Both the position numbers and the translations under genes were made by a program. A model generated the notes under the pieces. The model saw only the letters and a list, made by a program, of their open reading frames with translations. It was not told the origin of the DNA and did not search any database. Source: Symbiodinium natans (lineage: Eukaryota; Sar; Dinophyceae; Suessiales; Symbiodiniaceae). From it: 64,000 nt of DNA. Below, piece by piece: positions 1 to 19,514 of this stretch. The stretch is from assembly GCA_905221605.1 (NCBI GenBank), contig CAJNDS010002143.1, positions 444,061 through 508,060 on the forward strand, written 5' to 3'. The stretch's first letter is position 1. Every line of letters begins with the position of its first letter.

Positions 1-3000
1 TTCTCTCACACTCGGGGGCCTCCAGGCTGGAGCCAATCGAAGGTTTGTTGATGCACTGGGACTTCCTGCGCAAAGCGGCTGTCCGCAAGCACCAGAAGCT
101 CCTGCCATTCGTCGATTGCATCACCGCATGATGACACATGTCATTTCGCATGCCAAGCTGGGTCATGTCTTGCCATGAATGTAAGCGTGGCAAGGGTGCC
201 AAGCCAGCCGCACCGTGGAACTCAGCGAGGCTGACCCAGAACGGGCTGTATCCCCCTACATGCCTCGCTTGCGTTCACAATCGTTTGCAGAGCACACCGC
301 GCCCATGTGGCAGCCACCACTATGATTGCCGTGTCTATGGTTCACTATGGTTCAGGCGAGAATCTCAGATACCATCGTGCGATTGATGAAAATTGCACAG
401 CGCATAGAGCAGGCATGGAAGCGTAGCAAGCTGACAGAACCGGGGAGATGGATGCGATAAGCAGCGACCCCCAGTCGTCCGAGCGCAACCTCCACTTCCG
501 GGTCGCTGCAGGTCACAACACCATGCTGACCATTGCCTGCCCACATCTACCATAATCTACCTAACTTCTACCTATCTGCGGCCACGGATCCGGGTCGCAG
601 CAGCTTCTGTCGATTTCACAGCTCTCGCCAAGGCGCGAATCGCAGCAGCGAGCGCACGGCTTTGTGGCCCACTCCGGGCACGCATGTAGAGGGCAAAGCC
701 ATTCCCTCCCAGGAAAGCTTGCCGTCAACATATGTCAAGGGCAGCGCTTCCACTCAGTGCACAGAAGCAACTTGCCTGGCATTGAAAGGATCAGGAACCC
801 AAACTTGCCGCCGTAAATCTTCTTCCCGGACCCATGCAGCAGATGCAAAAGGCACGTCACCCAGGAAAGCAAAGTCCCACGGTCCTCACAGGAAAGCGTG
901 AACGTTCTGAAGCTGCCTGGGCCTGCAACAACTGCATACTATCAAGCACTGCACCTTGACTATCTTCAGTACCACAAGCCTGTGAGGGTCTGAACGTGGC
1001 GCCCAGGATAGTGCGGGAATTGCGTCTCACCGGTCCACGAGCCAACGAGCACAGGCAAAGCAGCTGCCCATCGCATGGGGAAGCTCTCCGAGGCTCCGAG
1101 TACTCCCTAAGGGTTTGGTGCTCTGTCATGCTCACAGCATTTGGCCTCATGGACTTTCACGAGGAAAGTGTGCTGCAAGGTGGCATATGCATGGAAGCTT
1201 CAAGCTCTCGGCGGCAGTGCGGCGATTTTGGTGCATGTGTGATCATGCGTGTAACCGGCAGCGCTGAGATGTGCTGAGCGAGCCAGCCCGCTCTTCCACC
1301 ACTAGCCCAATGAACTCTTTTGTCACGTCATCCTTAGCGATGATGCGATCGCTATCAAATATGGCTCTGCGTTGCAAGTGTTACACCAGTTCGGGCGAGC
1401 ACGAGCACAAACTTTAACGGCTCGAAGAACATCACAGGGTGCTCCTGATGGCACCAGCCCGACAAAGTGAACCAAAAGCATACTCGGCCTTGGCTCTGAA
1501 ATATCTTGCAGTAGCACTTAGGACACCTGGAGGTCTTGGAGCACCTCCTGCGCTTCGTCGCTTATGCTGCCTTACACGAGGCACCAACACCCTTTCCGAG
1601 AGCATCCGATGAGCACCCAATGACCCAGGCGCCTCCCAGCCCTCCAACTGAGTCCGCCGCGCTGCTTGTCTCTGTACGAAGTCAACTCCCGGAGATAATC
1701 CCGACCTGGCCCAAGGGTGCATAGCCAGCTAAGAAACTCGGAAATGCTGAGCATCTGAGAACCAGGCGCATCAAGTTCAGCTTGCGGCTCAACCTATATG
1801 TGGCGTTTCTAACCAAACTGGCACAGCTTTCATAAGGGCTGCATCAAGCCACCTACTACACACCCCGCATCATAGTGCGGGCGCGCATTCACACAATAAA
1901 GCAGCTTCCATCAATAACCCGTGCAGCTGAGCAACTCCATGTTGGTCTGCACTAGCATTTTGACCTGACCTTGCGGCTCCTGCGTTTGTGACGTGACGGG
2001 TCGGAAAAGCAACAGACATTTCAGCTGAGTTTGTCCTTTGGCATCGGCAGGCCATTGTCATCCAACGATTCGTCGACGTTCAAGACCGCATGGAGCACGT
2101 GCCCAGTGATCTGCCAACAATGGCACATGTCTGCGAACACATCCAAAGTGCGGCTGGTAAGCTCGCGGCCCTCCACGTCATTTCACACAGGGGCTCGTAC
2201 AAAGAGTTTGGCCTGAGCCGCACTTGTTATATCGGAACCAGAAGCCATCTGTCTGTGTTGCACGCTCTCTCAACAACCGCCGCATGTTCCTTGAACTTTT
2301 ATGCCCTGCACCGGTCCAGGCATGCAAGACCTGCGAACGTTGCGCTTTTCAAGCGCTCGGAACCACCATCACGGGCACACAGTCTCAGAATCCTCGGACG
2401 TGTAGCCTGCGGATGCAACACGACGCAACCTTGCAATTTCAAGGCAGGGCATTCCGCCAGCTGCTTGACCACCACTCAGCGTCAACGAAAGAACTTGATG
2501 CCAACTGCTTTGGCTTGACATGGCGACTGCGGCAAAACTAACTCGACGGCGAAGTTTCTCAGTGCATCAGACGTCACTCTTGATCTTCAGCTTGTCGGTC
2601 CTTGTAGTAGCCGAGGCCTGACCAAGCCATTGTCTGTTTAAGCAACCGGAGGGCATGGCAGAGAAGGCGTTCCTTGCTTCAGTTGGGGGGCGGCCTTCAG
2701 TCAGTCTGGCTTGTGGTTCGGCACGCTTACATCACACACTGCCGCGTTCTTATCTGTAACACAGACCTCTTGCCACAGTTCACGCATGCCCAGCACTCGT
2801 ACACTGTTGCGTCCTTAGCCATCCCTAGTCACCAGTCTTGAAGAGCTGATTTGTAGTGCTCCCATGGCCCATGGCCAGTGCCTCTGTGGTCCAGCTTGTA
2901 AACCCAACCGGGTCGAGATCCGCAGAAGCGCGCGCTTTCTGCAAAGTCATCTTCGCTGTACCTGGGACATTACGCATCTCACGCCTCCCCACTGCGAAAA

Positions 3001-4070
3001 AACTCACCAAGCTGACTCGAATTCAAGCATCCTCGGGCAGGCACGTCTTGCGAGGGACAGGCGGTGCTGGAAGCAGCATGGCTTCGAAACGCGGCTTTGC
3101 AAACCAGTAGAAACCTCACACTGAATGAGAACTAACCCGAAACGCAGCTAAACCCAACCTGCAGCATTCTGTCCAGTTGCTGTCCCAGATTCCAAGCGCG
3201 ATTCCTCCCGTAGCGACGGCTCCAGCGACTTTCGATGCCTGTTTCCGCAGTGCGCCCGACAGATGAAGTTCAAAATGTGCCCACTCCTATTTGGCACGAC
3301 CGAGCCTGGCTAGAACCTGCCATCCTGCAGTTTCATAGGCGCTCTACACCCCATCCAAGTTTGACAGGTGCTTGAGCCGAAATTAACATGCTGTTCAGAT
3401 TTTCCGACACAAGACACGGATGGACATGTCAAGGCCGATGCGTCAAAGGGCCATTTGCTGCCATCATCCTGATGCGGTGCCAAAAACGACATGGGCTCCC
3501 TCAGATCTTCGTGCATCTGTGGCAGTCCTTGCCCGCAGACGTTTGGCAAACAGCTGCACAATGTTCACCAAGTCCTCATGTCAATTGTCGATGGAACACT
3601 AGGCACTGGCAACTGCGGCAGCGCACAAATACACGTTGGCGATTTTTCTTCGCATGCACGCTGAGATTAAGCTCAAAGATTATGCCACGGCACATGCGAC
3701 GCATTGTCTCGTCGCCTGTGCACATTTGGGTGGCCATAATTTTAAAAGGGTGGGTGCCGCACTTTTCCTACGTGAAACAAATTCGCATGGGCAGGGAGCT
3801 CAACCGTTTCCACACACAGTTGCGCAATAGCATTGTCATAAGGATCTTTACCTTACTTTTCCCTCTGTTCCGATTGCGAACTGTGTGGCCCCGGTTTGCT
3901 CATACCAACCCGACAAAACCTGCTCAGAACAGGAATGAAAGCGGCGGCCTTGCGCAAGGAAGGGAGATGAGCGAAGCTGAGAGGCTCAAGCCAGGATTGT
4001 AAAAACCATCTGGCGCATGACCGCAGAAAATATTGGGATTTGAACGGGCCCATCACGACGCCTTGTGTTT
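1..4070. other. Stretch with no recognisable gene
   Basis: Short open frames occur on both strands, but none shows a protein-family motif, a consistent exon chain or a clear repeat structure that I can recognise. Composition is ordinary for the window (mixed, about half GC). It may be intergenic DNA, long introns, or exons of a gene I cannot identify. Confidence 0.4.
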
Positions 4071-4074
4071 CTTG

Positions 4075-4900
4075 TTTTTTCCTCGTACCTTTTTCCGCCC
4101 GCAGAAGACGAGTCCAAGTCCGGGCGGAGCCTACGGACCCAGGCGGCTGGGCACGGGCTCCAGCGCCGGGAGCGGCGCGCCGGGCATGGCCCCAGCGACG
4201 TATGGTGCGCCGAGCGGTGTGCCAGCAAGCGTGCTTTGCAAGGCCACACTCAGCAAGCCCCACCCCTGCGCAGCAGCCTCTCGCAGGGCAGCTGGGGCTC
4301 GCTGGGCGCGAAGCCGGACGAGCTGGGCGACGAGACGAAAATTTGCACTCCATCGCTCACAGGCCAGGACGCAAAGCCGCTGAGGCCCGCGTAGGCGACG
4401 CGCTTTGTGCCTCTCAGCGATCGCGGCGCCGTCGCAAGTCGCACGCGTCAGGGGGGCACGAGTGTCACGTCGCTGCAAAGTTCGCCGTGCGGGGCGGCCC
4501 CATATGCCATTATTGTTATTTCTCGGTCCTGTTTCGCCTGCATGCCGTCCATCCGAAGTCTGTACGACTACCGTTTACATGTCACAAAGTCGAGGCGGCG
4601 GTCAGCAGGGTCCACGCCTGGGGCAGACGTCCTGGCCAGCCACTGCAGGACGACTTGGCCGACTACGCACCCATGCGTGCTCGAGCGGTTTGGCTCTGCG
4701 CATGAATGGCAGCGCAGCGGGGCCTGTGCGCGCCAGCCGCCGCTGTCGCATGGTTATGAGCATGCGGTCGGGCGGCAGGGCCGCTTCAGCCTCGGGACGG
4801 CACTGAGCCAGGTCGCGCGTACGGCCTGGCTGTCCGGACCCCCGGTCGTTTTTGGGCTTCCTCTCTGAACGCAGCATCATCTGAGCAGGCGATCGCAAAG
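4075..4900 (-). pseudogene. LINE fragment: C-terminal nuclease-like domain with 3' tail
   Basis: Reading the minus strand from about 4890 down, there are remnants of the LGDH/LEHAW region (about 4760-4640), then a frame with QRLCVLACE and RLRAQRAPAALREAA (about 4480-4250) typical of the C-terminal domain. The piece ends in a tail at 4104-4075 that reads GGAAAAAGGTACGAGG followed by AAAAAA on the minus strand. At least one frameshift separates the two parts. No RT palm is present, so this is a 5'-truncated copy. Several open frames on both strands here are shadows of this copy. Confidence 0.65.
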
Positions 4901-4938
4901 CAGGCAGCAATTCGGTCTGGCGGAAAAGGATAAAGCAA

Positions 4939-5056
4939 TTTTTTCCTCCACCTTTTTCAGCTGTCCTCGCGGTCCCGGCGCGCAATCTTCAGCGGGGCGA
5001 CCGCTGCGCAGGCGTATTGTGGTCAGCGCGAAAGACTAGTCGAACCATCTAGTATT

Positions 5057-5090
<34 letters not shown>

Positions 5091-5800
5091 AGGGTTGAAC
5101 AGTTCTATCAAGCAAAGCGAATGATTAGAGATTAGAATCGGGGACGCGTTGTCTTCGAACTATTCCAAAACTTCTAATGGGTAAGATCCACAGTGGTTAC
5201 TTGATTGAACTTCTGGGATAAATCAAAACTGTAAGTGGGCCGTTTTAGGTTATGCGCAAGCGTGGACGGCTGGCGATTGGGGGGGCCTCGGAGGAATCGG
5301 CGAGGAGGTCGCTGAGCAAGGGGGCCTCTCCGTCGACATTGGCGGTCCCGCGAATGTGTCTGGAGAGCAAAATGGCAGCGAAGGCTCTAGCCGCAACGAA
5401 GGCGAGGAGGGCTGACCAGCGAAGCACAAAAGCGGAGGTGCATGCGGCCCGGGTGGCAGGCGGGGCCGCGCGGGCTCGGCATCGCGCGAGCTGTCTCACA
5501 AATGAGTTTCGGCATTCCACTGGCCCCCAACTTCGATGTTTAGCCCTGCGGGCTGCGAGCAGTGTTGCACCTACCGTCCGGCCCGCGGCTCAACGAGGCT
5601 CGGCCCGCAGCTCGACGAGGAGACGAGGGTGGTGTCGACGGCGACCTGTGCCCCGCAGTGGCTGTCCGTTGGCGATGACCGGGCTCGGCGCACGAGGACA
5701 TGCTCCCGCCTCACGACAGACCCTGGCGGCAGCGCGCTCGAGAGGGCCGCCGCAGGTGGCCAGGTGGTCACCTAGCTCATCCTGGCGGGCACCACATCGG
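4939..5800 (-). pseudogene. LINE fragment with an rRNA piece between its coding end and its tail
   Basis: The minus strand from about 5775 to 5255 reads GAQVAVDTTLVS, then after frameshifts the C-terminal region (LRWSALLAFVAARAFAA, GTANVDGEAPLLSDLLAD). The coding end is at about 5250. Instead of the usual short 3' untranslated stretch there are about 230 bp of antisense large-subunit rRNA. Only then comes a tail-like motif (CTGAAAAAGGTGGAGG plus AAAAAA, minus strand, 4962-4939). Whether the rRNA piece was carried by the element or the element landed beside it cannot be decided here. Confidence 0.6.
5021..5250 (+). rRNA. Diverged large-subunit (28S) rRNA fragment, probably a pseudogene
   Basis: The plus strand contains the LSU rRNA core blocks GAAAGACTAGTCGAACC, GGTTCCCTCCGAAGTTTCCC with CAGGATAGC, AAAGCGAATGATTAGAG, TAATGGGTAAGA and AATCAAAACTGTAAGTGGGC, in the order and approximate spacing of nuclear 28S rRNA. 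I recognise the last block as close to dinoflagellate LSU. It is not a working rRNA. It is only about 230 nt long and has a 2-nt insertion in the normally invariant ATCTAGTAGCTGG block (here ATCTAGTATTGCTGG) plus many substitutions. It is flanked on both sides by retroelement DNA. Confidence 0.85.
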
Positions 5801-5879
5801 CATCGGGCAGCAACTAGGGGAAGCCTCGGCAGGCGACTGGGGCTCGCAGGGGAGCATCAAGGCTGGCTGCGACCAGTGA

Positions 5880-6060
5880 GGCGCGGGACCGCGAGGAGCC
5901 AGAGTAAGGAAGGGGGGGGGGGGGTGGGGCGGGCCTTTGCTGTAGAGCCTGGCAACGAGCTCTTCAACAAATGCCGGGTCACGGTGCTGGATCACACGGA
6001 TCGCGTCGGCCCAAGACGACCAGTACGTTGCTGGGCATGGTAAAGAGCGCGTCGCAAACC
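5880..6060 (-). pseudogene. LINE fragment: RT-downstream segment
   Basis: One minus-strand frame reads PATYWSSWADAIRVIQHRDP then AFVEELVARL, matching the AAYWASWADAL segment that follows the RT thumb in this element family. It is bordered by a G-run at 5908-5921 (plus strand) and C-runs from 6115. No other part of the element is adjacent in frame, so it is an isolated scrap. Confidence 0.55.
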
Positions 6061-6114
6061 AAGGCCGATATGGGATAGTGCGCGCCACTGTGGCCTGCGG
6101 GAACATAAGCCAGC

Positions 6115-6206
6115 CCCCCCCCCCTCTCTCGTTCAAGCCCCCCCCCCTCTCTTGTTCAAGGGCCCCCCCCCCCCCCTTGGCCAATTGACCCATTGAAGGC
6201 CCCCCC
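6115..6206. repeat. Poly-C / CT-rich homopolymer block
   Basis: Four C-runs of about 9 to 18 bases are separated by CTCTCTCGTTCAAG-like spacers. The spacer TCAAG recurs, so the block looks like a small tandem array of a C-run unit. The minus strand would be strongly G-quadruplex-forming. Run lengths in such DNA are unreliable in assemblies. Confidence 0.7.
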
Positions 6207-6393
6207 CCTTTATCAATTTTGATAACATTTCGATTTCCTTTAATAGAATTTAACAAATGCAAAATGTGGAATTTTATTTAATAGGGAGCAAGGGTTTCTA
6301 GCTTCTATTAGTGGCATTTCTATTTCTTTTAATACAAGTATTCTTAATAGGGTTTCACTTGATTTTGATTCAAGTTTTAATAGGGTTTTTTTT
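6207..6393. other. AT-rich island 1 with repeated TTAATAGGG
   Basis: An abrupt drop to AT-rich sequence inside GC-rich retroelement DNA. The string TTTAATAGGG or TTAATAGGG appears at about 6275, 6340 and 6378, and TTTAATAGA near 6240. No protein or RNA family was recognised. It ends at the T-run that marks the 3' tail of the neighbouring LINE fragment. Confidence 0.5.
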
Positions 6394-6835
6394 CACGCAC
6401 CTTTTTCCGCAGGTCGTCCCAAGCCCCGGTCCCTGCACAAGCCTATGCGTCAGCTCACGCTGCGCGCGGCGCGACTCGGCTCGTGGCGGGAGCAGCAGTC
6501 CTTGGCACTCACCGTGCAGCGGCAGCTCCAGCAACGACATTGCAAAGGCGACGGAGAGAATGCCACTCCAGCGCTGTGCACCCAGGCGCCGCAGGCGGTA
6601 GCACGTAGGGCCGCAGGCGCCCCGCCGCACGTGCGCGTGCGAGTAGGCGGACGAACTGGGCTGCCTCGCGCGACCAGCGGCCGCCTACCTCGCCCGTCCG
6701 CAACAAGGCGGCATCGGCGCGCCCCTTCCAGTTCAGGGTATGTCTGGCGGCGCTTGCGCTGGGCGGCTTGGTCGAAGGCCAGAGCCGGACGGGTATCTGC
6801 ACCGGCTCGTGGCTCGCCGGTCCTGATTCTAATCG
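6386..6835 (-). pseudogene. LINE fragment: C-terminal nuclease-like domain with 3' tail
   Basis: The minus strand contains KRRQTYPELEGARRCRLV (about 6765-6710), then a shifted frame for the EVGGRWS-like and C-terminal helices. It ends in the family tail: CCTGCGGAAAAAGGTGCGTG then AAAAAAAA (minus strand, 6412-6386). The 5' boundary at about 6835 coincides with the start of the second AT-rich island, so the copy is 5'-truncated. Confidence 0.65.
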
Positions 6836-7058
6836 GGTTAGATTTTTTCATACTTTTGAAAGATTTTAATAATATGAATGAGGTCTTTATTCCTTCTAAT
6901 AAGATTGGTATTACGTTTAACGGGATTCGTATTAAAATAATCGTTTTCCTTCTCGAATTAAGTTCAACTCCTATTACAATTGATTGAACTGCAATTTGAA
7001 ATCTTGTTTTGTTAATCGCAATCGTCTTGAAATTAAAAAGGCTTTTCTATTTTTTTTC
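6836..7058. other. AT-rich island 2
   Basis: About 220 bp of strongly AT-rich DNA between two LINE fragments. It has a short open frame but no motif I recognise. Like the first island it stops at a T-run (7050-7058) that is the A-rich tail of the next minus-strand LINE copy. It could be the original target DNA or an organelle-derived scrap; neither is shown. Confidence 0.45.
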
Positions 7059-7700
7059 CCCCGCACCTTTGTCCGCCGAATCCGCCGTCCCAAACGCCTA
7101 CTGGCCGGAAGCCCGACGACCTACGGAAGGCTCACCGTGGAGGGAGCCGACTGGGCGCCGGGTGCTCGGCGAGGTCGAGCACCGTCGGAAGCCCGACGAC
7201 CTACGGAAGGCTCACCGTAGAGGGAGCCGACTGGGCGCCGGGTGCTCACAGCGAGGTCGAGCACCGTCGCTAGAAGCTGTGCGTCAACCTGCCCTGGGAG
7301 TGGGGGCATCGTCCGCTCGCCCAGCGCGGCGCTGCACAGGGCGCGCTGCACGGCTATAGCAGCCGCTCGAAGGACGGCCGGTGCTCGGTGCGCGCGCAGT
7401 CGGATGAGCTGCTTGAGCAGACGTTGGGACTCGTCGTTCCACCGCCCTCCGACTTCGGCAGCCAACACGCACAGGCGCTGTGGCCCCCCGAGGGAAAAGT
7501 TCAGGGTAGCGCACAGGTTTGCGTCGTGCAGCTGCCTCTAGTGCGGCACCGTCGCGGTCAGCGGCGCCGCGGGTGGGTCTGCCATCCCGCCCGAGCGGGG
7601 ACACGAGCGTCGCGTCACAGCAAAGGGCTTCGCCACGCTGGGTTGCGCCATAGATGACAAGATCAAGGCGCCGTCGGTCATCCGGCCGCACACCGACAGC
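7050..7700 (-). pseudogene. LINE fragment: nuclease-like domain, second subfamily
   Basis: The minus strand from about 7690 reads VRPDDRRRLDLVIYGAT, CCDATLVSPLGRDG and RRKPVRYPEL, then shifts frame to EVGGRWNDESQRLLKQL and RLRAHRAPAVLRAAA (7460-7350). The wording differs from the neighbouring copies (LVIYGAT instead of EVVANGL), so it belongs to another subfamily. It ends in an A-rich tail (GGACAAAGGTGCGGGG plus A-run, 7076-7050) and contains an internal 80-bp duplication. Confidence 0.65.
7107..7267. repeat. Perfect-length tandem duplication, about 80-bp unit, two copies
   Basis: The unit starting GGAAGCCCGACGACC occurs at 7107-7186 and again at 7187-7267. The copies are nearly identical: G to A at one position of CACCGTGGAGG, and a two-to-three-base difference near GGTGCTCGGCG. 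It duplicates part of the degenerate C-terminal coding region of the surrounding LINE fragment. Confidence 0.9.
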
Positions 7701-13205: not shown

Positions 13206-13347
13206 ATAAACATATCGGCGACTGCATGCAGATTTGGTTTTTCTGCGGCCAACAAAGCCGTACTGAATCGCATTGGCAGAATTAAGGCAAAAGTTGGCAG
13301 CTGATAATAGAACACAGACATGATAGCATCAGGAGTGTGACTCACCC
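13206..13347 (-). repeat. Split direct repeat B, outer copy
   Basis: 142 bp beginning ATAAACATATCGGCG and ending GTGTGACTCACCC on the plus strand; the other copy is at 13579-13720 and appears identical. It forms the 3' end of the YR element and directly abuts the RT remnant on its left. Confidence 0.95.
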
Positions 13348-13464
13348 CATGCACATGCCTACGCGCCCTTGCGCTATCCAGTCTCAACGTACTAGCATCC
13401 CCCTGCGGCGCACAGCTGCCGTCCCCCCCATATGCGGTCAGAAACCAGGGTGGGCCAGGGAGGG

Positions 13465-13580
13465 AGAAAAGAGTTCTGCTGGCACGACTCCCTTGGCCTG
13501 AGCTAAGATCGTCGGTGCCTGATGTCGCGCCTGTTTATGTGTGCTGCACCATGCCTGCCCTAGCCTGACAGCACAAGCAT
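13465..13580 (-). repeat. Split direct repeat A, inner copy
   Basis: 116 bp starting AGAAAAGAGTTCTGCTGG and ending CAGCACAAGCAT (plus strand). It matches 19399-19514 with one visible difference (GAGCTAAG here, GAGCCAAG there). Its last two bases AT are shared with the start of repeat B, which fits a recombination core at the A/B junction. Confidence 0.95.
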
Positions 13581-13720
13581 AAACATATCGGCGACTGCAT
13601 GCAGATTTGGTTTTTCTGCGGCCAACAAAGCCGTACTGAATCGCATTGGCAGAATTAAGGCAAAAGTTGGCAGCTGATAATAGAACACAGACATGATAGC
13701 ATCAGGAGTGTGACTCACCC
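13579..13720 (-). repeat. Split direct repeat B, inner copy
   Basis: The second 142-bp copy of repeat B, joined without gap to repeat A. Genes of the element begin just beyond its right-hand end: the RNase H frame stops at 13800. Confidence 0.95.
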
Positions 13721-13799
13721 AACGCTGCTCCGATGTATTCACACTTTTCTGCCAACGATGCTCGACTGTCCACACGGTTCGGCTGGCGCCGCATGCTCC

Positions 13800-14400
13800 T
13801 CAGACGTGACTAACTTCAAACTGCTGACAACGTTTCCACATCACCCGCAAGGGTTGGAACCACAAGGATTGCGGGCACCACATCGGCCGAAGCTCGAAGC
13901 CATGAGCTGTGCTGAAAGGATCCTTGTCCAATTCTCTGCTGATTCCATCCGAATAATTGCTGTTACTGCCCACCCACTCGAGCCAGCATCGGACGTTGAG
14001 GAAATACAAGAGCAAATGAAACACCGCAACGATGCAATCCAGCTGCGGACCCCTAGCTGTGCCCTTGACAATGGAATAGAGTGCAGTCGTGTTGTCGCAC
14101 AGCCATAAAACGTCTCTTCCTGCGAAGATATTCCGAAAATTCATGAGGGTAATTGGCAACATGCAGCACTCACACAAAGCTATGGGATTTGCTCCAGCCC
14201 GCAACGCTGCAGGAGAATCCAAGCTTCCAGAAGTTGCTGCTGAAATTGCAAGTGCCCCCCCACTTTGTGACCTGTCACAGGGTCGTAAATCAGCACACCG
14301 CCCGAAGGGTTTGAATCAGCTTGCGCATCCGAGGCCACAACCAGGAAACCAAGCGCACTGGCTGTTACTTTGACTGTTCTAGGCACATGGAACTCCAAAA
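13800..14400 (-). pseudogene. RNase H domain of the YR retrotransposon
   Basis: The first RNase H aspartate region FLVVASDAQADSNPSGG lies at the end of the RT frame (about 14340). The rest continues in another frame as GRDVLWLCDNTTALYSIVKG (about 14130-14070), LDCIVAVFHLL, and WVGSNSNYSDGISRELDKD (13980-13920). D..., the CDNT aspartate and the SDGISR aspartate give the usual catalytic set. RNase H removes the RNA strand during cDNA synthesis. One frameshift near 14200 splits the domain. The adenine methylase domain found in many DIRS elements was not seen. Confidence 0.8.
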
Positions 14401-16136
14401 GCATCAGGAGCAAATTATACGCCCTGCACAGCTCCCGCGAATTGTCCCACGGATGCTTGTCACTGTACTGCCTGCGGCGCAAGGGGCCAAATGGAGCACG
14501 ACCAACACGCCCCCACTGCGCGAGGGCAATGAAGCCGCAAACGCCTCGAATCTTGGAGGCCTGCGCAGGGGTCGTGCGGCCTGCAGCCATCCTTGCGCGA
14601 ATCAACCCAACAGCTTTGTCCACAAGGCTCTGCTTGGCATGAAAGGAGACAGTCCATGAACTGAAGGCAGCGCTGGTGTCATGAGAAATACCGTATGAAA
14701 TACCCAAAAAATCGTTTTGCAGCGCGAGGTCTTGAGCCTTGGCTTCTTTAAAGGACTGGCCGCACTCAGTGGCCAACTCTTTCCACAGAGCTTGCCCATG
14801 CCCTCCTGCACACTCCAAATCATCTAAATGGCTGTCGTCCACGTAGAGGCTCACCATGAGATGCAGGACTCGCCTCCCAGCCGCCTCCAAGAAAAAGGAA
14901 AATCTCTCAAACTGAAAAACGCTGGCGGCAAATCCAAACAACAAGGCCCAACATGGAAAGACATGAACCTCTTTTGTTTGGGGATGTTGCACAGCCACGT
15001 TGTTGTGTCTGAGATGCCGAGGATGAACTGGCAAAATGCGGTACGCCTCCGGCAGATCTTCTGCAGCTGTGAAAAGGCGGGTGCTCTGCAACATGGTCAC
15101 TGCTCCTTCACGCGCTGCCCACGCTCCAAGCGCTCGAGCAGCCACGGCAGGCATCATGGCAGAGACCATACTGAAACGTTCCGAAAAAAGCCGTGGCAAG
15201 ATTTTGCATGCCAGCTTTAGCATCATCGATGCGTCTGCGCTTCCCGTCCGGCTGAGTATGCACAAAGGCAGGCACTACAGACCAAGAGTCTTTGCCATAT
15301 TCCACATCCAGCGACTCCACGGTTACAGGCGCGCCCGCTTTGCCATTGGCCACTTCCTTCTGGCAACTGGCCCAAAGGAATTGCAGCTCATCCTGGTCAA
15401 AATGTCTCCGGCCGTACTGCTGCAACACGGCTGGGCCTGTGCCACACAAGGTGGCCTCATCGATGTCGGGAACCTCATCAACTGCTGTCCAGATGCTGAC
15501 CGTCTCAAGCTGACCAATCAACGCAAAGCCTTGCAAAAATCCCAGAGGCAGAGTCCTGTCCGGCCACTTCATGAGGATTATCAAGGCAGCAATGAGCCCA
15601 ACATGGATGTGCCCTGCCACACTGTTGATTGACGGATGCAAAAATTTTCGCAAATGGCGGGATAGGGGCTGGCAGCGGCGCGACAATTCCTGCAGCAGGT
15701 CGCGGCCTAACTTGCGGTGGTCTCGCAAAACCGGCAAGCAATGAATGGCACACCACGCCGCAAAAGAAAAATCTGCAGAGCATGCCAAATCATCAAACGG
15801 CAACCTCTCCTCATGGGATGCTTTACAGCATGCTCGGAATAGGGCTTCCTTGCTTTGGTGAGGAAGAACTTTGCTGGGCAACGCACCTTTTTGGGCCAGG
15901 ACTGTTGTCTGCAATCCCAAGCTTGGCTGAACCTTGGCAGTTGCTGTTAGGTGACTTGTGTTGACATCCACTCGATGATCGGCAGTCCATTGGTGAAACA
16001 ACGTGAAAAACGGATGGTTGAACAAATCTTGCAGCATGGGCAATGCAAAGCCATGCAGCGCTTCTCTCGGAAACATGAAGCGGAAACCACTGACAATGGC
16101 TTCCTGGCAAAACTCCAGCTGGACTGCTGGTGGCAA
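14180..16136 (-). pseudogene. Reverse transcriptase of the YR retrotransposon (frameshifted)
   Basis: Two overlapping minus-strand frames make up the RT. The first (16136-15108, 342 codons) ends with WPDRTLPLGFLQGF, WSVVPAFVHTQPDGKRRRID, the entry region of DIRS-type RTs. The second (15265-14180, 361 codons) holds region A (TAAEDLPEAYRILPV, codons 66-80), region B (FPCWALLFGFAASVFQFERF) and the catalytic YVDDSHLDDL (codons 141-150, about 14845). A single frameshift between about 15110 and 15260 is enough to join them. The first frame begins about 75 bp after the Gag stop. The order and wording of motifs match DIRS-order RT rather than the LINE RTs elsewhere in the window. Confidence 0.85.
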
Positions 16137-16208
16137 CGCGGCGGCACAACTGCCAGACTGCAGACTGGCCCCAAGCGAAGTCTCTGGCCCGCCCTCGCCT
16201 GGGCACCA

Positions 16209-17399
16209 TCAGGCCTTGCGGGCCCTTTCCGCCTGCTTGCAGTTGATGCCACGGTGGTTGCTCATGCCACAGACTCGCGCTTGCCGGGAACCTACCTGCA
16301 CATTGCACACGTGCAGCTGCTTCTTGGGGCAAGGGCCCGACTTGACACACTGGCCACGGTTCCAATCCTGGCAGATGGCTTTGCCATCCTTCAGCGCAGT
16401 AGCATAGTAAACAGTCTTGGACTTCCTGGTGCTTTCAAGCTCCGCAGCAGGCGGAGGTGGCACGTCAGCTGAGCTTGGCAAACTCCACACTGCTTGCCTC
16501 TCAGTGTAGACTTCTCGAATGACGGCGCCGATCGTGCGCTTGCTGCCCCGAAACCGCTCACACCAGAGAGCCCTGTCCTCCTCTTCTTTGGTCACGATTT
16601 CTGGCAAGCGGCTCACGGGCATTGACATGACATACTTCTGCACCCTATGAAAATGCGCCATGCAAACATCCAGCGGGCAAAAAACATAGCTGCATGGGTC
16701 AGAATGCACATCTTCAGGAGAAGTCGGGACATCAGGCGGCGCAAACGTGCCTGCTTTAGCGAAAGCCACCATCAGCATCTCCAGCTGGATCAAAAAATTG
16801 GCTACATTTTCTTCGACATGGTCCTCTACCGTTTCAGCATGGACAATGTGCACACCCTCCGTGACCTTGGTGCGCTTCTTTTCACCGCTGAGCTGTGCTG
16901 CCAACGATTTGACTTTGAGGACTTTGTGAATGGTGAGGAGTCTGCTTTTGAAAAGGCGATTGAGATTTGACACCAGCAAATCTGACGGCGTGCGAGCTGC
17001 CGGATACCTCATCCGATAGCGCCCCCAAAAGGCAACGTGAAGAGACTCAAGCTCTTCTGTGCCCAACAAAGCTTCCAGCTCAGGGGTTTCGAGACCTTTG
17101 CGCTTCTTGTCAGCTGCTTTCTGGACAGCTTCGACTACTGCCGCCCAGGCTTTGCGAACTCTAGCCGTTTGCACGCCCTTGTTCGACAAATCCTGCACTT
17201 TGTCAATCACATGGACCCTAACCTCATCGTCATTCGTGACGAACTTGGCAAAGTCTTCAAGGCTACGGCATCCCTCATTGACTAAGAAGGCGCCGACTTT
17301 TTCATTGACATTGAACTTGAGGCACAGCTCCTTGAAGAGCTCGGAAGGGTCATCCGCAGGCTGTGCTGGGGGTTGCAGGTCTGCCACTGTCAGAGCCAT
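16209..17399 (-). CDS. Gag-like protein of the YR retrotransposon
   Basis: An uninterrupted frame of 396 codons from ATG at 17399. I chose this start rather than the first ATG of the open frame (17630) because the upstream part overlaps the end of the YR frame and looks non-conserved. The N-terminus has an acidic, helical domain containing EGCRSLEDFAKFVTND, followed by a long helical middle. Near the C-terminus is a cysteine/histidine cluster (CQDWNRGQC, then CPKKQLHVC), like the CCCH-type fingers of dinoflagellate DIRS-type Gags, and a second C..H..C group (CGMSNHRGINC). Gag would package the element RNA. It is the only ORF of the element with no visible break. Confidence 0.75.
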   Translation of the reverse strand: MALTVADLQPPAQPADDPSELFKELCLKFNVNEKVGAFLVNEGCRSLEDFAKFVTNDDEVRVHVIDKVQDLSNKGVQTARVRKAWAAVVEAVQKAADKKRKGLETPELEALLGTEELESLHVAFWGRYRMRYPAARTPSDLLVSNLNRLFKSRLLTIHKVLKVKSLAAQLSGEKKRTKVTEGVHIVHAETVEDHVEENVANFLIQLEMLMVAFAKAGTFAPPDVPTSPEDVHSDPCSYVFCPLDVCMAHFHRVQKYVMSMPVSRLPEIVTKEEEDRALWCERFRGSKRTIGAVIREVYTERQAVWSLPSSADVPPPPAAELESTRKSKTVYYATALKDGKAICQDWNRGQCVKSGPCPKKQLHVCNVQVGSRQARVCGMSNHRGINCKQAERARKA

Positions 17400-17488
17400 G
17401 CTACTGGCTGAGAGCGAGCGCTGCTCAAAGAACAAGGCCACTACGAAGCTACAAGAAAAAAGGAGTCCTGACTGCGGCAACTTCAAGG

Positions 17489-19367
17489 CTAAAAACACCG
17501 CTGGCGCTCTTTGCGCGACGCAGACATGGGTGGGTAACAAGCACGCGCTTCGGTACGCTTCTTGATTTCTTGCGCTGAAACCACCTGGCTCTTTAGATGC
17601 TCTGGCAACAAGAAAACGCAAGCTGTACAAAAAGGACGATTTGCACTGACCGCCTCAGACAAGGAGTCAAACCTCAAAGCTTTTCCTTTGAAGATGCCGT
17701 TCTTCAGCTTCTGACGCCATGAGCATACAGGGCCCACAGCATCCGCGCGGCACAGATGCATGAGAGCGCCGCGTCGGCCCGCTGACACCCAACTCTGAGG
17801 ATCAAAGACACGCTTCCCACATGGTCGCGATGGCTGCAAAGAAGGCTGGCGAGGCACATACCTTCGATTTTCCATGTGTTTCAGGTGACCTGGGGCCCGT
17901 GCTGCAAACTCCGCCTTCGCAGAGAAGTCCGCGTAGGTTGCTGCCTCCTCTTGCCAGGACTGCACCGTGGCCGCTGGCTGACGTGTCCACCAAGCCCGAA
18001 AATCCTGCCAGGACGACACGTTCGCCTCCAAAGAAGCAGCGAACGTCAAAGCGTGAAGCGCCTTGCTCTGCACTTCGTTCCCCTCGCGCTGGCCACTATA
18101 GCGGAAAGGCATGGAATTTCTGGTTGCCCTGCGATCGCGAATTGCCGCCTCGTCCATCTGCCACCCTCCCACATCAAAGCGCTCAGGCCATGGGGCACCG
18201 CGGCAATCTAGCGCTGTGGGAGCGCAGCGTCGGAAGGAGTACGAAGACACGGGCGGCGAATCCGCGCACAAGACATCTGCCAGCTGTCGCTGCGCCATGT
18301 CATTGAACTGAGACAGGGACACAGCGCGACCATCAATGTGGCAAATGAAAACAGGCGGGCTTGCCTGGTAGCAAGGCAAAGCTTGCGTGCTGTGCCATCC
18401 ATCCCAGATGCAGCGCAATGACTCTTCCAGCACCGGCAATCTCGGCACGAACCAACTGAATCGCCCTACTGACCGGCACCATGCGCAAAGCATGTCGATA
18501 TCGCAGCGGCATGAACGCCAAGACCACCATCACAGACAAGACGCACGCTGATGCCAGTTGCTGAGTTCTGGCCTCTTGCGCACGGCTGCAGAGGAAACCC
18601 ACCATAAAAGGCTCCAGCGGCACAGCCTGCCCTCGCTCCCCAGAATCGCGCAGCTCCGCCTGGTGCACAGTGCGGGGCACAGGAACTGCTTCCATATCAA
18701 GAGGCGCTTGCAAGTGTCGGGCAAGCCAGGCCAAGCGATCGTAGCATGCCTTCGGCACAGATGTCCCTTTTCCTTCGGAGGAGATGTTGATGTAATCTTC
18801 TACAAGAACTGCCGGGACGCCAGCCCCGAACTGAAGAGCTGCGCTGGACGGATTTTGACTGCGGACATGGCTCCACAATCGTTGCCACTCAGCTAGCGCA
18901 GCTTTCACCGTACGCGGCTCAAATCCCAATAGACGCGCAGACAATGACTTGACACGTCGCTGCAACATGGCTTCATCGACCACTCCAGCTTTGACACCAA
19001 ATGCTGGCGCCCAGGACATTGACAACTGAATGGCTCGGTTTACTTGCAACTGGCGCTGAATGAAATCAACCTTTACAGTGAGTGGTTTGAGCATACCTTG
19101 CGTCGCTTTAGCACGCACATGAGGCTTGCGCATCCGTGGGCCGCACGCTATGTGACCGACTTGCAGCAAGTCTTTTGCAATGACATAACCATCTGATCTG
19201 CACTCTCTTGCCTGTACCCAAGCAGCCTTGAGCGGCTCTGATGTCGGCAAATGCGTGTCAGTAAAGAAGAAGGCTAAATCATCCACCGTTTCCAGGCCTT
19301 CACGCGAAGCCCAATCCAGCAAATCCGAATAGCCATGCTTCGTCAGCCACTCCTTGATGGCATCCAT
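17489..19367 (-). pseudogene. Tyrosine recombinase of the YR retrotransposon (one frameshift)
   Basis: Two overlapping minus-strand frames. The first (19367-18333, 344 codons) starts MDAIKEWLTKHGYSDLLDW and contains SEGKGTSVPKACYDRLAWL, EPFMVGFLC and the box I arginine region FMPLRYRHALRMVPVSRAI. The second (18493-17489) continues with VFICHIDGRAVSLSQF, SSYSFRRCAPT (box II, R present, the usual first H replaced by Y), RFDVGGWQMDE and MPFRYSG, whose Y is the likely nucleophile. The frameshift lies in the 160-bp overlap. The protein would join the circular cDNA into the genome. It stands before Gag in the element and shares an N-terminal motif with it. Confidence 0.7.
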
Positions 19368-19398
19368 GGCTGAAGGCTCATGGCCTTTCTCTTTTCTA

Positions 19399-19514
19399 AG
19401 AAAAGAGTTCTGCTGGCACGACTCCCTTGGCCTGAGCCAAGATCGTCGGTGCCTGATGTCGCGCCTGTTTATGTGTGCTGCACCATGCCTGCCCTAGCCT
19501 GACAGCACAAGCAT
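19399..19514 (-). repeat. Split direct repeat A, outer copy
   Basis: 116 bp matching 13465-13580. It forms the 5' end of the YR element; the YR start codon lies 32 bp inside at 19367. Confidence 0.95.

Follow-up and report, generated by a model that had tools for sequence, protein, structure and literature searches.

A split-direct-repeat retrotransposon of Symbiodinium natans with its tyrosine recombinase gene ahead of Gag

Is a retrotransposon whose tyrosine recombinase (YR) gene comes first a rearranged copy, or is this its native order? The question is raised by positions 13206-19514 of a 64,000-nucleotide stretch of Symbiodinium natans DNA (the window), where a single YR retrotransposon lies on the minus strand in the arrangement A1 - YR - Gag - reverse transcriptase (RT) - RNase H (RH) - B1 - A2 - 117-bp spacer - B2, A and B being repeats. 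YR retrotransposons are classified, in the accessible parts of the literature, by domain content, strand, and repeat arrangement. An initial annotation had called the region a split-direct-repeat YR retrotransposon with the order YR-Gag-RT-RNase H, and its sequence and seven sister copies bear this out. We give a probability of about 0.93 to the reading that a single such element inserted here recently and that YR-Gag-RT-RNase H is its native order. The element is recently active. On the comparison of sequences, the YR-first order is an old heritable trait of the lineage and not a rearrangement, because all eight copies found and diverged families share it. The features of the element, all on the minus strand, are these:

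19399..19514, minus strand: A1, left terminal repeat, 116 bp; the outer edge is TGCTTG in 8/8 copies, preceded by a variable flank base
18333..19367, minus strand: YR, first open reading frame (ORF) piece, N-terminal part with the box I Arg; part of an uninterrupted 646-aa ORF in 6/8 copies
17489..18493, minus strand: YR, second ORF piece, with box II YxxR, GxW, and the MPxRY nucleophile; from the ORF list, copy comparison, and alignment
16209..17399, minus strand: Gag-like protein, 396 aa, Cys/His-rich finger at the C-terminus; unbroken in 8/8 copies
15108..16136, minus strand: Pol, first piece, with the N-terminal extension and the fingers part of RT; runs on into RT without a break in homologue P0002 and copy L009
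14180..15265, minus strand: Pol, RT (DLPEAYR, LLFGFAASV, YVDD) and start of RNase H; motifs conserved in homologues
13800..14222, minus strand: Pol, remainder of RNase H (CDNTTAL, NYSDGISR); motifs conserved in homologues
13579..13720, minus strand: B1, internal repeat, 142 bp; from repeat comparison
13579..13580, minus strand: B1/A2 junction, the equivalent of a circle junction; two shared bases in the window, of which copy comparison leaves one common T
13465..13580, minus strand: A2, internal repeat, 116 bp; from repeat comparison
13348..13464, minus strand: spacer between A2 and B2, 117 bp; of equal length in 7/7 full copies
13206..13347, minus strand: B2, right terminal repeat, 142 bp; the outer edge ends GTTTAT

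The repeats measure as annotated, 116 bp for A and 142 bp for B in the layout A - genes - B A B, to which the spacer between A2 and B2 is an addition. Within the window the two A copies differ by one mismatch (99.1% identity) and the two B copies are 100% identical. The genes are packed closely between them. YR spans 19367-17489, Gag runs from its ATG at 17399 to its stop at 16209, and RT/RNase H occupies 16136-13800. A1 ends 31 nt ahead of the YR ATG, the YR stop and the Gag ATG are 89 nt apart (annotated as about 90 bp), and ~80 nt separate the Pol stop from B1. A hidden repeat between YR and Gag had been named as a sign of a composite copy; repeat comparison within the window found no third A or B there. 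The ORFs are longer than chance would give: five of at least 340 codons lie on the element's strand, and among 500 first-order random elements only 4 contained any ORF of that length. A short inverted repeat, CTCTTTTCT-T-AGAAAAGAG, spans the inner end of A1 just ahead of the YR start (window positions 19389-19407); at A2, the bases that follow CTCTTTTCT differ from those at A1.

Sister copies were sought across the 759-Mb assembly (2543 contigs) to which the window belongs, whose size and SymbioDIRS-like elements are in keeping with a dinoflagellate host. A 261-bp query over the A2-B1 junction identified six further places with the whole stretch, and these were fetched together with six weaker places; the copy counts that follow are lower bounds. 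Seven copies (the one in the window and L009-L014) are complete, each reading A-YR-Gag-RT-RH-B-A-B, and an eighth (L015, positions 1215-7205) reads A-YR-Gag-RT-RH-B without the A2-spacer-B2 part. The copies are on different contigs and YR is upstream of Gag in all eight. None of the copies found in this genome has A and B repeats around Gag-RT-RH-YR, the finding that would have pointed to a rearranged copy in the window; the seven with a full repeat set are all YR-first. A genome-wide search with Gag returned eight full-length matches at ~100%, the next full-length match being at 37% and short fragments reaching 44%.

Pairwise divergence among the copies is 0.05-0.57%, and the flanks are different in all eight. 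Every copy begins TGCTTG and ends GTTTAT, and the internal junction is GTTTATGCTTG, with one T common to both ends. YR retrotransposons (order DIRS) are not known to make a target-site duplication, and none was seen in the eight copies when 40 bases of flank per side were compared by eye. Within each of the seven full copies, B1 and B2 are identical over 142 sites, and A1 and A2 show no difference or a single one in 115. In L011-L014 both B copies are 99.3% identical to the window B, and in the other full copies both are 100% identical to it, as expected if the repeats are regenerated from one another in each cycle. The 646-aa YR is uninterrupted in six of the eight copies, Gag is intact in all of them, and Pol is a single ORF (799 codons between stops) in two, L009 and L012.

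Partial forms are also present. L017 (2096-2435) is a solo A-spacer-B from which a piece of B is missing, and L016, L018, L019, and L020 hold only A, only B, or A-like and B-like pieces. Forms of the L015 and L017 types may be the products expected from recombination between direct repeats, and resemble the solo AB repeats of Ngaro elements in the accessible text on Cafeteria burkhardae (PMC8547959).

We next compared gene order in diverged elements. Two YR queries, with split hits merged, gave 41 YR places, which were compared with 43 Gag places under a 6 kb limit; left out of the Gag set were seven zinc-finger matches inside YR ORFs, two extra Gag fragments on C1741, and one short hit on C1736. 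Gag was downstream of YR on the same strand at thirty-two of the forty-one places, upstream at none, and on the opposite strand at none. The proteins of the distant YR elements are 17-39% identical to those of the window family. These searches score the best candidates only, so that they could miss elements whose order differs and whose YR has diverged further, and the order of Gag and RT outside the window family is based on the fetched loci.

Several of these loci carry their own A-YR-Gag-Pol-B-A-B structure: L021 (A 137 bp aligned, 92%; B 221 bp, 100%), L022 (A 54 bp, B 221 bp), L024+L036 (A 171, B 172), and L025+L035 (A 97, B 165). L041 has the same A/B layout, its B2 being incomplete where the fetched sequence stops. 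Together these repeat-bearing loci represent three further families (L021 with L022, L024 with L041, and L025+L035). For the remaining loci among L026-L034 no A/B set was established, as the stretches end inside the elements or show none.

Trees were built without an outgroup for YR (seven families), Gag (seven), and RT (six, with the RT of L022 standing in for that of L021). All three recover the same splits over the six common families: the window family with L021, L025 with L040, and the window family, L021, and L024 against L033, L025, and L040. Support for the window family with L021 is 0.999 for YR, 1.000 for RT, and 0.643 for Gag. L027 groups with L024 in the YR tree (0.970), a pairing that the Gag tree, itself weakly resolved, does not show. 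For the most part, then, the three genes have travelled together, and the YR-first order is older than these families.

The recombinase is identified by its active site and predicted fold. In an alignment of seven YR sequences from six families of the same genome, the presumed catalytic residues R, K, R, W, and Y are invariant, and the box II His position is Tyr in all seven. The closest structural matches to a model of the YR are Cre, XerH, and Flp. The assignment as a YR rests on these invariant residues together with the moderate structure model. A protein search with the first YR piece (344 aa) gave no match under a 1.75x length limit that would exclude an intact 646-aa YR. Codon usage of YR correlates more closely with that of Gag and RT/RH in frame (r 0.85 and 0.89) than out of frame (0.78-0.86), but one frame of the flanking DNA is equally high (0.85, 0.88), so this comparison decides nothing. 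The suspicion that YR and Gag share an N-terminal domain was not supported. In L026-L032, the YR ORFs have a zinc-finger stretch like the Gag C-terminus directly after the YR domain, matching Gag residues 292-390, 293-390, or 314-390.

Gag and Pol have relatives outside this genome. The putative RT motifs DLPEAYR and YVDD and RNase H motifs CDNTTAL and NYSDGISR are kept in public homologues at 39-75% identity, and the AYR and [FY]xDD motifs of RT are present in 6/6 families. Public contigs contain Gag and RT homologues at 70-77%. Two Gag/RT homologue pairs probably lie on one contig each (39098 and 50618), because the contigs of each pair are equal in size. No relatives were found in viral contigs or in prokaryote contigs. 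The Gag N-terminus is weakly similar, below the cut-off, to PF05295, the N-terminal domain of luciferase/LBP (E 0.0031 for P0006, 0.024 for window positions 16212-17399, and 0.0067 for the Gag of L033).

Several observations weigh against our reading of the region. The copy in the window lacks a 62-bp stretch of the other copies that includes the segment with the catalytic Lys, and because its YR and RT/RNase H frames are broken it cannot be autonomous; intact ORFs are present in other copies. Searches of Pfam, NCBIfam, PHROGs, and PDB sequences returned no match for YR or RT, and RT/RNase H matched no family model or PDB sequence. The YR structure model has a mean predicted local distance difference test score (pLDDT) of 56.4 and a predicted template modelling score (pTM) of 0.43. 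Comparison of YR with lambda Int, Cre, and XerD by hhalign gave non-significant probabilities of 0.11, 0.33, and 0.13%, all below the 0.38% of the unrelated control DsbC; the short alignments to Cre and XerD fall on what we take to be their box II regions. In the gene-order comparison, nine of the forty-one YR places had no Gag match and eleven of the forty-three Gag places had no YR match within 6 kb. Two of the nine were fetched. Closer queries reveal Gag, DNA methyltransferase (DNMT), and RT downstream of the one on C937 (L040), and the one on C2537 (L042) has no Gag in the fetched stretch.

Some diverged elements in this genome carry a DNMT in the order YR-Gag-DNMT-RT-RH (L025:290-6244 with L035:700-2772, and L040:1079-9379). 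The DNMT of L025 matches PF00145 at E 2.1e-4, its 21.3 bits lying just under the cut-off of 22, and that of L040 was found by tblastn with the L025 domain (E 2.3e-33). They look like the published SymbioDIRS-Dnmt3 elements. De Mendoza et al. (2018, PMC5890265) described Symbiodinium DIRS-type elements that have A-coding-B-A-B repeats and in which the order of integrase and Pol is shuffled, and for SymbioDIRS-Dnmt3 the accessible text gives two structures in which that order is shuffled. The window family is like SymbioDIRS-Dnmt3 in its A-coding-B-A-B repeats, its separate YR ORF, and an RT too divergent for Pfam. It differs in that no DNMT was found in it and in that YR-Gag-RT-RH recurs over families. 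Gag lies between YR and Pol here, and its position is unstated in the text on SymbioDIRS-Dnmt3 that is accessible.

The element in the window might then be one of the published type that lost its methyltransferase. The same repeat layout, the shuffled integrase/Pol order mentioned in the accessible text of PMC5890265, and the presence of YR-Gag-DNMT-RT-RH elements in the same genome speak for this. However, no DNMT match was found in the L009 Pol, in the Pol pieces of the window (the other copies being within 0.57%), or in the Pol of sister family L022. The uninterrupted L009 Pol ORF has no methyltransferase match in Pfam at E up to 10, though a divergent methyltransferase could escape Pfam. 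Furthermore, the window-family RT is only 27% identical to that of L025 and 23% to that of L040, and the part of PMC5890265 available does not place Gag. We regard such a loss as unlikely. Either DNMT was lost in the window family or it was gained in the L025/L040 branch.

A second alternative is that a YR-only DNA transposon, similar to a Crypton, inserted between A1 and Gag of an element without its own YR, whether lost or never present. The combination of a Crypton-type YR with a Gypsy-type RT/RH has been suggested for YR retrotransposons (accessible text of PMC6681497), and an ancient event of this kind may explain the order. However, the YR fits compactly, with 31 nt between A1 and its ATG and 89 nt between its stop and the Gag ATG, no second YR was seen in the element, and the YR, Gag, and RT trees are concordant over six families; we consider the insertion very improbable. 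A recent insertion is excluded by the order being common to diverged families. Finally, a standard Gag-RT-RH-YR element could have been rearranged, either because neighbouring copies were joined or because a permuted circle integrated. This has almost no probability left. Its sole point is the order Gag, RT-RH, YR of Ngaro elements in the literature (PMC8547959, in part). The sister copies refute it with an identical order in 8/8 on different contigs, the stretch between YR and Gag contains neither repeat, and diverged families have the YR-first order in common, in keeping with the initial argument against joined neighbours.

Returning to the reading of a native YR-first element, we compared it with the published descriptions of other known groups. 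VIPER/TATE elements have the gene order Gag, YR, RT/RH. In the accessible description from kinetoplastids (PMC6681497), they resemble the window family in having A1 ... B1-A2-B2 repeats, no methyltransferase domain, and YR upstream of RT/RH. They differ in their order, which that source gives as Gag, YR, RT/RH by the order of a legend and by RT being in the third ORF, whereas here YR is first and Gag second in all eight copies. Ngaro elements of C. burkhardae share the A1-[ORFs]-B1A2B2 repeats (PMC8547959, in part). Unlike them (ORF1 Gag, ORF2 RT-RH, ORF3 YR), the window family has YR first in 8/8 copies and a 117-bp spacer that separates A2 and B2. Split direct repeats are also a feature of PAT-like elements, including Kangaroo and TOC (PMC4157794, PMC3266345), in the accessible parts of which the YR of Kangaroo is inverted and PAT-like elements are described without a YR-first order. 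Unlike the DIRS/PAT group, for which these sources list a methyltransferase domain, no methyltransferase match was found in the L009 Pol.

The initial annotation had suggested that this may be a new lineage of YR retrotransposon in dinoflagellates. The gene order does mark an old lineage, but its novelty is partly pre-empted by the SymbioDIRS elements: YR before Pol was probably already drawn for the DNMT-bearing branch in PMC5890265. Relative to the accessible text of that paper, what is new is Gag between YR and Pol, families free of DNMT, and the recurrence of the order. A search of open-access literature returned no other publication evidently on a YR-first order, judged mostly without full text. 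With the evidence evenly balanced, in our view, we propose that YR-Gag-(accessory)-RT-RNase H elements with split direct repeats may form a separate old superfamily of YR retrotransposons in dinoflagellates, or in protists more widely, distinct from DIRS, PAT, Ngaro, and VIPER. Such a superfamily would have repeatedly recruited DNA methyltransferase, dual-specificity phosphatase, and DUF4326, and the published SymbioDIRS-Dnmt3 would be one branch of it. Whatever its rank, the lineage sets methyltransferase-carrying elements among relatives that have captured other domains, and the recurrence of the YR-first order in families with proteins as little as 17% identical to those of the window family shows it to be ancient and heritable.

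The structure suggests a replication cycle. Translation of the promoter-proximal YR would be part of it, and the RNA would be copied by the element's own RT/RNase H within a particle formed by the putative Gag. The internal B1-A2 block equals the joined ends of the element, and the cDNA could close to a circle with a B-A junction. YR may then recombine this junction with a chromosomal site around the single T, so that no target duplication would be made. The recent copies provide a set for testing how split repeats are regenerated.

One family of YR retrotransposons in this genome bears a phosphatase domain (L023:4035-6359, minus strand; L024:4532-6856, plus strand; and L036:1-2730). A dual-specificity phosphatase domain is present in the YR ORF (PF00782, E 2.7e-11, tested in L023), and DUF4326 is found in Pol ahead of RT (PF14216, E 8.5e-9 in L023 and 1.7e-8 in L036). 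A literature search for a phosphatase domain in YR elements returned only one review, on Ty3/Gypsy elements, judged without full text. Elsewhere in the window, positions 5064-5324 contain a fragment of eukaryotic large-subunit rRNA (Rfam RF02543, 76.7 bits).

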